Virus record (IMG/VR): IMGVR_UViG_3300031240_000021
Coordinates: 1 to 38,960 of that record
Length of the DNA stretch: 38,960 nucleotides
Reading direction: 5' to 3' (one strand)
DNA from: a virus
The notes beneath the pieces were generated by a model. The model saw only the letters and a program-made list of their open reading frames with translations. It searched no databases and was not told the origin of the DNA. Every line of letters starts with the position of its first letter. The stretch's first letter is position 1. Both the position numbers and the translations under genes were made by a program. Of this stretch, positions 5,109-18,901 are shown in pieces.

Positions 5109-5245
5109 TGCCATTAGCTAAAGGTAAATCGAAGGCAGCAGTCAGCAACAACATCAAGACGGAAATGGCAGCTGGAAAGCCTCAAAAGCAAGCGGTGGCT
5201 ATTGCTTTAAACGTTGCTGGGAAATCCAGAAAAAAAAGGAAGTAA
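5108..5245 (+). CDS. small basic protein, DUF6496-like
   Basis: The gene encodes 45 residues. The start ATG overlaps the preceding stop as TAATG. The sequence pattern ([16 protein letters not shown], then [15 protein letters not shown], then a Lys/Arg tail) matches my recollection of a small family common in phages and catalogued as DUF6496. Function is unknown. The high charge suggests nucleic-acid binding or packaging inside the head. Confidence 0.72.
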
Positions 5246-5246
5246 C

Positions 5247-5426
5247 ATGCACAAGAAAATCATGGAAAAGTGTGCGAAGAAACTGGATAAAGACGCTGCA
5301 CACTATGCCAAAGAAGCCAAGCACGCGAAGGGCAAAAAAAAGAAACACGAGAAGACAGAAGAGCGAGAAGCAAAAAGCGCAGCTAAAGACCTCAAACATC
5401 GTGCGAAAAAATCTCACGAATATTAG
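5247..5426 (+). CDS. small Lys/His/Ala-rich basic protein
   Basis: The gene encodes 59 residues from the ATG at 5247, one base after the preceding stop; AGGAAG lies just upstream. The protein is one long Lys/Ala/Glu-rich helix-forming sequence with little hydrophobic core (KHAKGKKKKHEKTEERE). It is the last gene before a terminator and resembles in style the small basic proteins at 23010-23938. A DNA-associated head protein is a guess; no family was recognised. Confidence 0.68.
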   Translation: MHKKIMEKCAKKLDKDAAHYAKEAKHAKGKKKKHEKTEEREAKSAAKDLKHRAKKSHEY

Positions 5427-5475
5427 AGTGACGTTACCCAGTTCTTTCTTCATAGATGTTACCCTGTTGCAGGGG

Positions 5476-5510
5476 TGGGAGGGCTTAAAAACCCTCCCAT
5501 TTTCATTTTA
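5476..5510 (+). terminator. rho-independent terminator
   Basis: An 8-bp perfect stem (TGGGAGGG / CCCTCCCA) encloses an 8-base loop and is followed by TTTTCATTTT. It ends the rightward run from the fibre genes and small basic genes. The T-rich tail overlaps the stop codon of the converging recombination operon. Confidence 0.85.
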
Positions 5511-6401
5511 GGGCTGCGTGCAGATGCGCCAACTAGAAGTCGATTCCTTGCGGTATTTGTCTAGGTCTACATCCTTTAGCTCCGGCACCTTGGAATAGTC
5601 AATATTCCCTCTTCTAGTCACCTGACAAAGGGAAATCCCCGCGCCTCGTGAGTTCCTTTCTCCACTTAAAAAGACGAGCTGCTCTCGCAATTCTTCCTGG
5701 TATTTTTCTAGGCATTTGATATCCTCAGAAACAGATTTCCATTTTCTGGCGCACTCTTGCCAGATCCCGTCTGAAAGTTCTATATAATCACCGTCAGCGG
5801 GTTCAGGGGGCGTTTTAGACATGAGGCAATCGTAAAATTTACGTTCCTCTTCTATCATGGCTTTGATGTACGTGTCATCGCGTTCAATTTTGATCGCAAC
5901 CCCATCGATGCCGTCGAAGCTATAATACCAAGCATAATCGACATCACATACAGCCATCTGATGCTGAAGTTGAGGGTAGTAATGGACGGGTACTTTCCCT
6001 GATACAGCCAACGCATGATCTTTCTCCCCAGGACACTTTATTTCCAGAATGTGCTGGCGAGTATCGTCTATACCGTCTAAAGATGCCATCAAAAATCCAC
6101 GGATAGCGACAATCGGAGCGGTCCTAACGCCCTTTTCGATATTAAACATCTCCCTTGCTATGGGTTCAAGGTCGATGCCACGCTGCATGCGTTCATTGGG
6201 CTGCATGGGCGGTTCGTCAGATAGCTTTTCGTGGTACAACTGTAACCGCGTCTTCCAGGGGCCGGCCCCCATTACAACTACCGCGTCGGTAGCCGTAATC
6301 TTAGTCTTACGCAGGGCCAACCATTCTGGCGTGCCTTGGACTATGTCGTCTCTGTATTCAAGCACCCCTAGGTCATCTAAAAACTGCACTGTTGCCAACA
6401 T
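5508..6401 (-). CDS. YqaJ-type viral recombinase (lambda-exonuclease fold)
   Basis: The gene encodes 297 residues; the ATG is preceded by GGAG 9 bases upstream. Near the N-terminus GTPEWLALRKTKITATDA matches the YqaJ entry motif. MQRGIDLEPIAREMF follows near residue 85. The PD-(D/E)xK catalytic set is visible as SLDGIDD, LEIKCPG and the downstream HYYPQLQHQM. The enzyme would resect double-strand DNA ends 5' to 3' and leave single strands for the annealing protein encoded upstream in the same operon. The remaining C-terminus is helical. Family assignment is firm; polarity and partner use are inferred from the family. Confidence 0.88.
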   Translation of the reverse strand: MLATVQFLDDLGVLEYRDDIVQGTPEWLALRKTKITATDAVVVMGAGPWKTRLQLYHEKLSDEPPMQPNERMQRGIDLEPIAREMFNIEKGVRTAPIVAIRGFLMASLDGIDDTRQHILEIKCPGEKDHALAVSGKVPVHYYPQLQHQMAVCDVDYAWYYSFDGIDGVAIKIERDDTYIKAMIEEERKFYDCLMSKTPPEPADGDYIELSDGIWQECARKWKSVSEDIKCLEKYQEELREQLVFLSGERNSRGAGISLCQVTRRGNIDYSKVPELKDVDLDKYRKESTSSWRICTQP

Positions 6402-7832: not shown

Positions 7833-8066
7833 ATGCGAGTGAAAGTAACGTTTAAGATGTACCTGGCCTATGTCGGGCTTACGGTAGCACAAATGGCGGA
7901 GCTGCTAGAATGCAGCCCTGGGTATTTGCAACTAGTGATCTGCGGCCAAAAGAGGCCAAGCCCTAAGTTCAACCGCGCCATTGTGCGGGCAACGGACGGC
8001 TGGATCAATTTGCTAGAACAAGAATCGTCAGCAGAAGTAGTAGTAGCATCCAGGATAGCTGCCTAG
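7833..8066 (+). CDS. Cro/CI-like helix-turn-helix protein
   Basis: The gene encodes 77 residues from the ATG at 7833, chosen for GGAGGT just upstream; the frame is open further 5' without a good ribosome site. Residues 10-55 form an XRE-type helix-turn-helix (LTVAQMAELLECSPGYLQLV, then a basic third segment). It is divergent from the recombination operon promoter, the arrangement of a phage repressor or Cro switch. Its likely targets are the dyads and shared spacer motif in the leftward promoters. A longer CI-type repressor partner was not seen. Confidence 0.75.
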   Translation: MRVKVTFKMYLAYVGLTVAQMAELLECSPGYLQLVICGQKRPSPKFNRAIVRATDGWINLLEQESSAEVVVASRIAA

Positions 8067-8122
8067 TCGTAGGTGCTGGGGCGCGAAAAGAATCAACAGT
8101 GAAAAACACAAGATGACGCATA

Positions 8123-8172
8123 ATGCTGCCTTTTTAAGGGGTGCATAAAACCCCATTGTACGATGGCAGCAT
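8123..8172 (+). promoter_or_regulatory. nested stem-loop upstream of the 8193 gene
   Basis: An outer perfect 8-bp stem (ATGCTGCC / GGCAGCAT) encloses an inner 5-bp stem (GGGGT / ACCCC) with a 7-base loop. The element ends 20 bases before the next start codon. It could be an RNA leader structure that controls translation, or a protein-binding site. No T-run follows it. Confidence 0.5.
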
Positions 8173-8192
8173 AACCGCGTAAAGGAAAATTG

Positions 8193-8537
8193 ATGGAATC
8201 ACTATACCAGGGCTTGCCGGACATCACGGCAACCCAGCCGGAGAATAAGGTCTACGGCAAAGACAAATTAATCTCGACGGATCCCGAAGAATTGTTTGGC
8301 GAGATGAAGGCGCTGCTCTCTGCGCCGGAGTGCGTGACACAAGCGCACGCGGTCACCAATATCGTAAATATCAACGAACAACTCAGAGGTGAGCGCAATG
8401 AATTGGATGAGACGCAACTCAACCGTCTGGAGACTTGCATGCGGATCAAATACCCGAATCGCATTCGCGCGTCCCCGCATATGGACACGCTCCCGACGAT
8501 AGAGCCAACAAAGAGGCGCTGGTGCGTGATACTCTAG
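8193..8537 (+). CDS. unknown early protein
   Basis: The gene encodes 114 residues from the ATG at 8193, with AAAGGA upstream; a TTG one codon earlier is less likely. The central part (PEELFGEMKALLSAPECVTQ to NRLETCMRIKYP) is helical. The N- and C-termini look extended. No family was recognised. It lies between two highly structured noncoding segments and is followed at once by a bidirectional terminator. It may be part of the same early control region as the HTH gene. Confidence 0.65.
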   Translation: MESLYQGLPDITATQPENKVYGKDKLISTDPEELFGEMKALLSAPECVTQAHAVTNIVNINEQLRGERNELDETQLNRLETCMRIKYPNRIRASPHMDTLPTIEPTKRRWCVIL

Positions 8538-8539
8538 GA

Positions 8540-8713
8540 AAAAGAAAGGCCGCTAGGACTTTTGGTCTTAGCGGCCTTTTCTGTTGCAATCCTACTCAAG
8601 GATGTGTAGGATGATACTTGTTGTAAAGTGCGCGACCACGAAGTTCGCACTTTACGATCTCTGCTAGGTCTAGCGTCCATTCCACACCTAGCAGATGTGA
8701 AGATTTCTCCGAC
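8540..8713 (-). ncRNA. candidate structured small RNA of about 170 nt
   Basis: This is inferred from a promoter-to-terminator arrangement read leftward. The promoter TTGTCT-N18-TAAGAT (8749-8720) would start near 8713. The transcript would fold into three successive perfect hairpins: a 10-bp stem at 8660-8695, a 10-bp stem at 8623-8655 and a 7-bp stem at 8589-8612. It would end at a 15-bp terminator stem followed by TTTCTTTTT at 8579-8539. No reading frame of note lies in it. Alternative: the hairpins belong to a rightward leader or to a replication origin. Confidence 0.5.
8545..8580. terminator. bidirectional rho-independent terminator
   Basis: A 15-bp stem with one G-U pair (arms 8545-8559 and 8565-8579) and a 5-base loop. 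Rightward it is followed by TTTTCT and closes the gene ending at 8537. Leftward it is followed by TTTCTTTTT and would close the candidate small RNA. Confidence 0.88.
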
Positions 8714-8750
8714 AAATCAATCTTAACCTGTAGTGGCAGATTAAGACAAG
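8711..8750 (-). repeat. 40-bp promoter/dyad repeat, copy 1
   Basis: This segment matches 8806-8845 at 35 of 40 positions. Each copy carries the dyad CTTAACCTG-N6-CAGATTAAG and, read leftward, a promoter-like pair spaced by 18 bases. The dyad overlaps the spacer and -10, as an operator would. Confidence 0.8.
8720..8749 (-). promoter_or_regulatory. candidate leftward promoter of the longer small RNA
   Basis: Read leftward: TTGTCT at 8749-8744, an 18-base spacer, and TAAGAT at 8725-8720. It begins two bases after the T-run of the terminator at 8752-8794, so the two units would be back to back. Confidence 0.45.
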
Positions 8751-8794
8751 TAAAAAAAAAGATCCGCTGCGTATTTCACCCACCCAGCGGATCT
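8751..8794 (-). terminator. leftward rho-independent terminator
   Basis: A perfect 10-bp stem (AGATCCGCTG / CAGCGGATCT) with a 15-base loop is followed, leftward, by nine T residues. No leftward protein gene lies within 1.9 kb upstream of it, which is what points to a small RNA. Confidence 0.8.
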
Positions 8795-8808
8795 CGAATT
8801 CTTCAGAC
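8752..8808 (-). ncRNA. candidate small RNA of about 57 nt
   Basis: The leftward promoter TTGACT-N18-TAAGAT (8844-8815) would start near G8808. The only structure in the transcript would be the strong hairpin of the terminator at 8760-8794, giving a short RNA made of a 14-base 5' end, a hairpin and a U-tail. Existence is inferred from these signals alone. Confidence 0.45.
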
Positions 8809-8845
8809 AAGCCAATCTTAACCTGTAGTCACAGATTAAGTCAAG
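8806..8845 (-). repeat. 40-bp promoter/dyad repeat, copy 2
   Basis: This is the partner of 8711-8750, 95 bases away. The dyad arms are identical in both copies; the loop differs at two bases. Read leftward, the -35 is TTGACT here against TTGTCT in copy 1, and the -10 is TAAGAT in both. Confidence 0.8.
8815..8844 (-). promoter_or_regulatory. candidate leftward promoter of the shorter small RNA
   Basis: Read leftward: TTGACT (five of six consensus bases) at 8844-8839, an 18-base spacer, and TAAGAT (four of six) at 8820-8815. The dyad CTTAACCTG-N6-CAGATTAAG spans the spacer and -10. Confidence 0.48.
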
Positions 8846-8893
8846 CCGGAAGAAGTCAAATAAACAACACGGGTGGAAAGATGAAGATGTCCC

Positions 8894-9835
8894 GTGACTC
8901 CAGAAAAAAAAGATATTCTACAAGACCAGAGCACTTTTCAGAGAGCTAAGCATGACAAAGAACATCCTTTTGTCATGGTATCAAAGGAAATGATTAGGGA
9001 CATATCAGTCTCACCAACAGCAAAATTCGTCCTGATTTTTCTTCTTTCATATCCCGACAATTGGAAAATTTATCACTGCAACCTACAAAAATCTCTGAAT
9101 ATCGGCGAGCATGCCTTGAATTCCGCTATGGACGAGTTGATAAAGGCTGGGTACGCAACTCGCACCAGAAAAAAGGTTAATGGGCGCTTCATGCCATATG
9201 ACTATCAATTTTCGGAATTAAAATTATTTGTACCAGACCGGGAAATCCCGGCTGGTGAGCATGAAAATCCGGGCGTAGGTAAAAAGCCTCCACACGACGG
9301 TTTGAGCCAGACGGGGTTTACCGGCCCGGAAAACCCCGACATACTAAATACAGACATACAAAGAGAACAGACAGCAGGGGTACCTGCCTCTGCTGCTGTT
9401 TTTTCTGGATCTCCGGAAAAGGAAATCTATCTATGCCTTCGAGATCTAGACATGCCCGCATGTGACAAGCGATGGATAACGGATCATTATCCTCAGGGCC
9501 GCGTAATAAAATCAGTAGAGTGGGCCTCGGACCCGAACAATCCCCCGACAAAATGCCTGGCGGCTCAGATAAAGCAAGCGTGCAAGTTTGAGTATGAGCT
9601 AGAAAATCCGAAGGAAAAACCAGCGAAAAAGAGCCATTATGAAGAGCTGCAGAAATATTTCAAAAACGGGAATATTTATAATGGTGCCGAATGCACTCTC
9701 AAACCTGACGGGATCTCATTCATGCGGGGGCAGAAACATAGACAAGTACATATAAATCAATACTTTACATGGACAAAAATTGCGGACATATGCAAAGATT
9801 TTGGTATCCAATTCAACAGGGAGAACCAAAAATGA
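8894..9835 (+). CDS. winged-helix phage replication initiator-like protein
   Basis: The gene encodes 313 residues from a GTG with GGTGGAAAG upstream. Residues 20-110 form a winged-helix domain of the phage replisome-organiser or DnaD-N type: a VSKEMIRD segment, SPTAKFVLIFLLSYPDNW, then a recognition region (IGEHALNSAMDELIKAGYAT). The middle is a low-complexity linker and the C-terminus is basic. Such proteins bind the origin and recruit host helicase. The structured noncoding region just upstream, or sites within this gene, may be the origin. It starts a rightward replication and modification run. Confidence 0.72.
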   Translation: MTPEKKDILQDQSTFQRAKHDKEHPFVMVSKEMIRDISVSPTAKFVLIFLLSYPDNWKIYHCNLQKSLNIGEHALNSAMDELIKAGYATRTRKKVNGRFMPYDYQFSELKLFVPDREIPAGEHENPGVGKKPPHDGLSQTGFTGPENPDILNTDIQREQTAGVPASAAVFSGSPEKEIYLCLRDLDMPACDKRWITDHYPQGRVIKSVEWASDPNNPPTKCLAAQIKQACKFEYELENPKEKPAKKSHYEELQKYFKNGNIYNGAECTLKPDGISFMRGQKHRQVHINQYFTWTKIADICKDFGIQFNRENQK

Positions 9836-18089: not shown

Positions 18090-18315
18090 CTTACCGTACC
18101 TAGAGGACGCTGATCTACTTTGGGATGTGATTAAGCCAGTGCTACAACAATACAATCCCAGTGACCGATGCGTGGGTTCAATGGCTGCTAATATAGTTGG
18201 CCAGATATTCGTACAGCATGGCATCAATCGCAATGATTTTTTAGAGCAAATGATTAAATGCTATGATCTACATTATGACATGTGGGTAAAGAGGGTCAAA
18301 CAACATGACGGGTAA
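18082..18315 (+). CDS. small acidic helical protein
   Basis: The gene encodes 77 residues from the ATG at 18082, chosen for GGGAGG upstream; it overlaps the preceding gene by 8 bases. The product is helical and acidic at the N-terminus (MDDLPYLEDADLLWDVIKPV), with no motif recognised. It overlaps the start of the serine recombinase gene by 11 bases. A recombination directionality factor would fit in size and place, but there is no sequence support. Confidence 0.62.
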   Translation: MDDLPYLEDADLLWDVIKPVLQQYNPSDRCVGSMAANIVGQIFVQHGINRNDFLEQMIKCYDLHYDMWVKRVKQHDG

Positions 18316-18901
18316 ACGCATAGGTTACATACGCGTAAGCACCGAAGAGCAAAACCCTGATAGACAACTGGAAGGTGTAATGTTAGATAAGAAATTTGTG
18401 GAGTACGCATCGGGAAAATCAACAAACAGACAACAATTGAGGAACCTAATTGACTACGTTCGAGAGGATGACATTGTCATTGTGCATAGCATGGATCGCC
18501 TGGCTCGCAATCTCAGGGACCTTCACGGTCTGGTGGATGAGTTGGTGCAAAAAGGAGTGTGTATTGAGTTCTGCAAAGAACAACTTAGATTCGACGGGGG
18601 AAGTAATCCCATGGGATGTTTACTTATGAGCTGCATGGGCGCTTTTGCAGAGTTTGAGTATAGCATCATCAAAGAACGTCAAGCGGAAGGAATAGCCATA
18701 GCCAAGAACAAAGGCAAATATAAGGGCCGCAAAAAATCACTGGAGGGACCGCAGTTAGAGGCTTTAGCCGAACAATATGCGACTCGAAAGTCGCTTAGTG
18801 CTATAGCAAAGAGCTTTGGTATTTCCCACACAACGTTATACAGATATTTAGACCAGCTAGGTCTGCGCAATCACATGCATCAAATAGCGCAAGGGCAATG
18901 A
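18305..18901 (+). CDS. serine recombinase (resolvase/invertase type)
   Basis: The gene encodes 198 residues, the usual length of small resolvases and invertases. The catalytic Ser is in GYIRVSTEEQN (about residue 12), followed by VHSMDRLARNLRDL with the conserved arginines, FAEFEYSIIKERQAEGIA (E-helix) and a C-terminal HTH (SLSAIAKSFGISHTTLYRYL). It would cut and rejoin DNA at paired sites, either resolving multimers or inverting a segment. The target sites were not identified. It shares the transcription unit with the integrase-like protein at 17120. Confidence 0.9.
   Translation: MTGKRIGYIRVSTEEQNPDRQLEGVMLDKKFVEYASGKSTNRQQLRNLIDYVREDDIVIVHSMDRLARNLRDLHGLVDELVQKGVCIEFCKEQLRFDGGSNPMGCLLMSCMGAFAEFEYSIIKERQAEGIAIAKNKGKYKGRKKSLEGPQLEALAEQYATRKSLSAIAKSFGISHTTLYRYLDQLGLRNHMHQIAQGQ

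Follow-up and report, generated by a model that had tools for sequence, protein, structure and literature searches.

A predicted pair of tandem leftward noncoding units, each made up of a promoter, a short structured RNA and an intrinsic terminator, is the best reading of the 356 bp gap that precedes the replication initiator gene (rep, from 8894) of a soil bacteriophage, and leftward terminators are kept at the same position, ahead of rep, in related phages. A preliminary description had proposed tandem noncoding RNA units in this gap, and the proposal has gained strength from this conserved position and from three relatives (G003, G004 and L169) in which promoter, RNA and terminator follow one another twice over and more clearly than in the phage itself. 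Judged from the sequence, we consider it quite probable that both leftward units are transcribed. The whole explanation, namely two tandem small RNAs at the position of lambda OOP and pO that control rep or replication in cis, is the one we favour, with somewhat more reserve.

Genomic context of the gap

The window, i.e. the whole stretch of DNA analysed, spans 38,960 bp and comes from IMG/VR as a virus record. Leftward of the gap lies a YqaJ/RecE-like exonuclease gene (5508-6401, minus strand), followed on the plus strand by a gene for a small HTH protein in a cro-like position (7833-8066; weak match to a phage repressor family) and by a gene of 115 codons in the position of cII (8190-8537), which matches no family and for which a search for relatives found none. 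The gap separates this gene from rep (8894-9835, plus strand), which occupies the position of lambda O and encodes a winged-helix/DnaD-like protein with matches to replication-initiator and DnaD-like families. Genes for a helicase (15829), TerL (19576) and the portal protein (20949) lie further along. A tRNA search found no tRNAs, and a host search among genome contigs matched only two metagenome-assembled bins, which contradicted each other.

Two further features of the window were recorded. A strong rightward terminator (5476-5499; d=28) stands between the leftward genes 5199-5453 and 5508-6401, 368 bp from the closest rightward ORF, and comparable orphan rightward terminators occur about 5 kb ahead of parB in G007, G010 and G029. 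A serine recombinase/DNA invertase gene (18305-18901) has matches in many relatives, and in G002 (L109/L110) rep, parB and the recombinase gene are inverted relative to the portal gene.

Repeat, dyad and predicted promoters

As the preliminary description had it, a 40-bp segment is present twice in the gap (8711-8750 and 8806-8845; 35/40 identical); the repeat extends to 48 bp (8703-8750 and 8798-8845) with 83% identity and a spacing of 95. In a repeat scan of the gap it scored 25, whereas none of 20 dinucleotide shuffles scored above 12. Each copy holds the dyad CTTAACCTG-N6-CAGATTAAG, a candidate operator, at 8817-8840 (copy 1) and at 8722-8745 (copy 2, 95 bp or about nine helical turns from copy 1). 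These are the only two copies in the window, where 0.02 would be expected by chance (three or fewer mismatches), and both sit between the -35 and -10 boxes of the predicted promoters.

The promoter-like pairs described earlier do occur in both copies on the minus strand: TTGACT-18-TAAGAT at 8815-8844 (9/12 consensus positions; predicted start at about 8808), with dyad copy 1 in its spacer, and TTGTCT-18-TAAGAT at 8720-8749 (8/12; predicted start at about 8713). Both of these consensus matches precede rep. They are modest sites, ranking 15th and 100th by matrix score when the sites of the two strands of the window are taken together, and a consensus scan of the surrounding 6 kb found no excess of promoter-like sites (11 vs 8.5 expected). 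The hexamers by themselves would not have been convincing. On the plus strand, a candidate rightward promoter that could serve rep (TTGCAA-17-TAGGAT, 8584-8612; rank 70) overlaps the third hairpin of the second RNA described below.

In the gap before gene 8190-8537 (8120-8183) a further site resembles a leftward promoter (TTTACG-17-TACAAT) and ranks 16th in the window; it is flanked by short inverted arms, ATGCTGCC/GGCAGCAT, that fall under the threshold of the repeat tool. No clear terminator was found in that gap; the site is possibly a third leftward unit.

Terminators and predicted RNAs

Terminators were predicted and scored with a d'Aubenton-Carafa-type function (d). The hairpin said to end unit 1, with a 10-bp stem and nine Ts, is present as placed (8752-8794, minus strand; d=54, dG -19.6), and this leftward T9 terminator (8793-8761) is the best-scoring intrinsic terminator in the window. 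The end of unit 2 likewise carries a terminator (8545-8579), but its supposed 15-bp stem forms only 14 of 15 pairs when read leftward, owing to one A-C mismatch. This stem (8576-8548), which begins 11 bp past the stop codon of gene 8190-8537, pairs fully only in the rightward direction, through a G-U pair; it is thus a bidirectional terminator (d=44 rightward, d=32 leftward) that would end both the gene and the leftward RNA, and it fits the rightward gene better.

Predicted RNA 1 (8752-8808, minus strand; about 57 nt) would, by sequence and fold, consist mainly of the terminator hairpin, preceded by a short 5' leader. Predicted RNA 2 (8539-8713, minus strand; about 175 nt; -73.2 kcal/mol, z=-7.85) would comprise three hairpins in addition to its terminator hairpin. 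The three had been called perfect and are so: hairpin A (8660-8695) and hairpin B (8623-8655, with GTAAAGTGCG arms) each have 10-bp arms, and hairpin C (8589-8612) has 7-bp arms. The run that folds most strongly in the window lies within the gap, and the folding windows at 8461-8820 are among the six most structured of 431. The z-score of the whole gap is -9.1 on either strand, and folding energy was accordingly discarded as uninformative on strand preference. The gap had also been described as having no ORF; a 48-codon ATG frame (8680-8534, minus strand) does cross RNA 2, and it is unlikely to be a gene because its stop falls past the U-run.

Searches for homologues

A search of Rfam gave no match at the gathering score, and a permissive search yielded chance-level matches only. 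No DNA homologous to the gap was found in the phage collection or in the relatives beyond short chance matches, and covariation analysis on the window's own sequence was therefore impossible. Scans of viral contigs for the dyad pattern (2.9 million contigs) and for the hairpin pattern returned one match each, both judged to be chance: that in L002 lies inside phage structural genes, and that in L175 is an intergenic hairpin in a contig otherwise without similarity. No DnaA boxes were found in the gap.

Leftward terminators ahead of rep in related phages

A portal search retrieved 80 related contigs, of which the near-complete ones were scanned for terminators on both strands. Orphan leftward terminators in these relatives cluster upstream of rep. 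In the gene-order test a leftward terminator was present in 6 of 11 pre-rep gaps, the window's own among them, against 8 of 278 other co-directional gaps (Fisher p=1.6e-6), a contrast that was probably lowered by the mechanical ORF calls, which misassigned some gaps. At least four of the eight other gaps (G016, G031, G039 and G042) resemble pre-rep or rep-adjacent gaps, tentatively so in G031 and G039, given their unassigned downstream ORFs. Six additional contigs found only via Rep homology (L169-L174), an independent set, all have a leftward terminator before rep (6/6); the context is divergent in L170 and L172, where genes further to the left point leftward. In total, a leftward terminator is present in 12 of the 21 pre-rep gaps, or in 13 when the next gap of G003 is included, and no good leftward terminator was found ahead of rep in G010, G048, G027, G037 and G007.

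Promoter scores upstream of the leftward terminators exceed those of shuffles in aggregate (p=7e-7), a value that is only indicative and is optimistic, as the terminators were chosen by hand and the upstream regions scored overlapped one another. With local base composition, this aggregate scan preferred, for the two terminators of the window itself, sites other than the two promoters described above.

Closest parallels and repeated gap sites

The gene order of L169 comprises RecE-like and RecT-like genes pointing leftward, a small HTH-like gene, two leftward terminators and rep. Both tandem terminators have d=44, one of them followed by nine Ts, and unit 2 has the promoter-like pair TTGCCT-17-TAAGAT, with a -10 box identical to that of the window. 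The HTH protein of L169 showed no similarity to the window's HTH protein.

In G003 and G004 two tandem leftward units carry sigma70 boxes, TTGACT-16-TATAAT and TTGACC-17; L009/L010 are nearly identical to G003, and the leftward units of G003 are separated from rep by a small rightward gene. Between G003 and G004 the first promoter is nearly invariant, and both terminator stems have diverged in sequence yet still pair; as these are effectively two independent sequences, the preserved pairing is suggestive and falls short of a formal covariation test. The Rep proteins of the two phages have only their C-terminal parts in common, their N-terminal (DNA-binding) domains being unrelated. The same promoter site thus accompanies unrelated Rep N-terminal domains, which makes Rep an unlikely reader of the site and a separate regulator more likely. 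Among the relatives (L084-L100), the winged-helix part at the N-terminus of Rep and the C-terminal part appear to be independently shuffled; G034 and G037 likewise have only C-terminal parts in common.

The most extreme run of leftward terminators in the group is that of G040 (L145; about 18113-18570), with about five consecutive terminators in some 460 bp before rep. Several relatives also have a phage-specific gap site that recurs at a distance of 60-90 bp, usually in inverted orientation, one of the copies lying at the leftward promoter; the repeat score exceeds that of all 20 shuffles in G000, G042, G023, G007, G010, G013, G039 and G003. The region before rep in G007 (L113; 16516-16641) holds an iteron-like site, AAGGGCTAGACAC, in two direct copies and one inverted copy, as well as nested inverted repeats.

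Comparison with lambda OOP and plasmid antisense RNAs

The promoter pO of phage lambda gives rise, immediately before gene O, to the leftward OOP RNA, which is antisense to cII; when active, pO decreases pR transcription, and its activity is required for normal replication (PMC3985674; PMC12197685). The window is similar in gene order, with recombination genes pointing leftward and then the HTH gene, gene 8190-8537, predicted leftward RNA and rep. The predicted short leftward RNAs would lie beside the replication initiator gene and be convergent to early rightward transcription, and the predicted leftward terminators lie by the point where the preceding early gene ends, as with OOP. Unlike lambda, the window has two predicted tandem units instead of one, with the dyad duplicated in their promoters, and its RNA 2 would be larger, with four hairpins. 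Whereas OOP overlaps cII, RNA 2 would extend (to about 8539) only as far as the stop codon of gene 8190-8537, which is itself not recognisably a cII gene, and the window RNAs have no sequence or Rfam match to OOP. Neither an antisense overlap with cII nor homology in sequence was found when looked for, and the window RNAs are therefore not demonstrated members of the OOP family.

CopA of plasmid R1 and RNAIII of pIP501 are antisense RNAs of plasmid rep leaders. The predicted RNAs would share with them a short structured form on the opposite strand, a location between a regulator gene and rep, and complementarity to the rep leader; by position, RNA 2 is complementary to that leader if the rep mRNA begins upstream of 8713. 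CopA and RNAIII belong to plasmids, whereas the window is a phage with two predicted RNAs.

Proposed mode of action

The two tandem short-RNA genes would start just ahead of rep and end by the 3' end of the preceding gene, with 5' ends that may fall near the predicted starts. Both promoters are probably controlled by a DNA-binding regulator that recognises the two dyad copies in their -35/-10 spacers. The dyad pair fits a repressor-type operator pair; it would allow the two promoters to be regulated jointly, and the HTH protein encoded at 7833 may be the regulator. The RNAs, convergent transcription or both would most likely tune, in cis, rightward transcription into rep and the origin. RNA 2 could pair with the rep leader in either case, whether transcription reads through the terminator at 8548-8576 or starts at the candidate promoter (8584-8612); given such a rightward promoter, both RNAs may be antisense to the rep leader, as in plasmid copy control. 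RNA 2 stops short of the upstream coding sequence, which makes antisense silencing of gene 8190-8537 in the manner of cII unlikely; convergent interference or antisense pairing to the rep leader is the more likely mode. A broader generalisation is doubtful at present, namely that this large group of podovirus-like soil phages shares fast-diverging tandem leftward small-RNA genes before rep, with plasmid-style antisense copy control of the initiator and a phage-specific paired operator in the RNA promoter.

Alternative explanations

The leftward RNAs may be real and act in trans on host or phage mRNAs, their place beside rep merely setting early timing. Trans-acting phage sRNAs are documented, among them PreS (LPR1) of lambda, which acts on dnaN (PMC12197685) and, like the RNAs predicted here, is phage-encoded and tied to replication while differing from them in genome position. 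The length, several hairpins and stable fold of RNA 2 would suit such a role, and the run of terminators in G040 exceeds what a single cis switch would need. RNA 1, on the other hand, is nearly all terminator, and the only complementarity between the RNAs and other parts of the phage genome consists of three 11-mers, including a run of As; no convincing trans target within the phage was found. Between relatives the position is kept and the sequences are not, which favours a cis over a trans role; we regard action in trans as unlikely.

Similarly improbable, in our assessment, is that the gap is a replication origin or an operator array, in which Rep or a repressor would bind the dyads and hairpins as DNA while the terminators would only shield it from transcription. 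The gap does immediately precede rep, and the phage-specific repeated sites, often with one copy in the leftward promoter and an inverted one 60-90 bp away (G007, G013, G023, G042 and G003/G004), count in favour of this view. The absence of a DnaA box, and a site common to G003 and G004 despite the unrelated N-terminal domains of their Reps, speak against it. It leaves the sigma70 boxes before the terminators unexplained, and a T9 terminator that works leftward only implies leftward transcription. The presence of RNA genes would not, however, prevent the gap from serving as an origin as well.

Ordinary shielding, in which the terminators merely halt stray antisense transcripts and the repeat holds two operator copies but no promoters, would accord with the 9/12 and 8/12 hexamers, the lack of enrichment of such sites nearby and the service of the 8548-8576 terminator to gene 8190-8537, but is very unlikely given that leftward terminators are nearly missing from the other 278 co-directional gaps and that near-consensus leftward promoters precede those of G003 and G004.

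Significance

Tandem leftward RNAs acting in cis, the reading that we prefer, suggest that phages well outside the lambdoid group have, as a recurring design, an OOP-like leftward RNA beside their replication gene. The position of the unit before rep is kept while its sequence turns over, and the unit is sometimes multiplied, with two in the window, G003, G004 and L169 and about five terminators in G040. Such RNAs escape sequence-based RNA family searches completely, and a leftward terminator in the pre-rep gap offers a rule for finding them in uncultured phages. The natural variants make it testable whether lambda pO/OOP works through the RNA or through convergent transcription, and together the findings suggest a widespread way of timing the copying of phage DNA.
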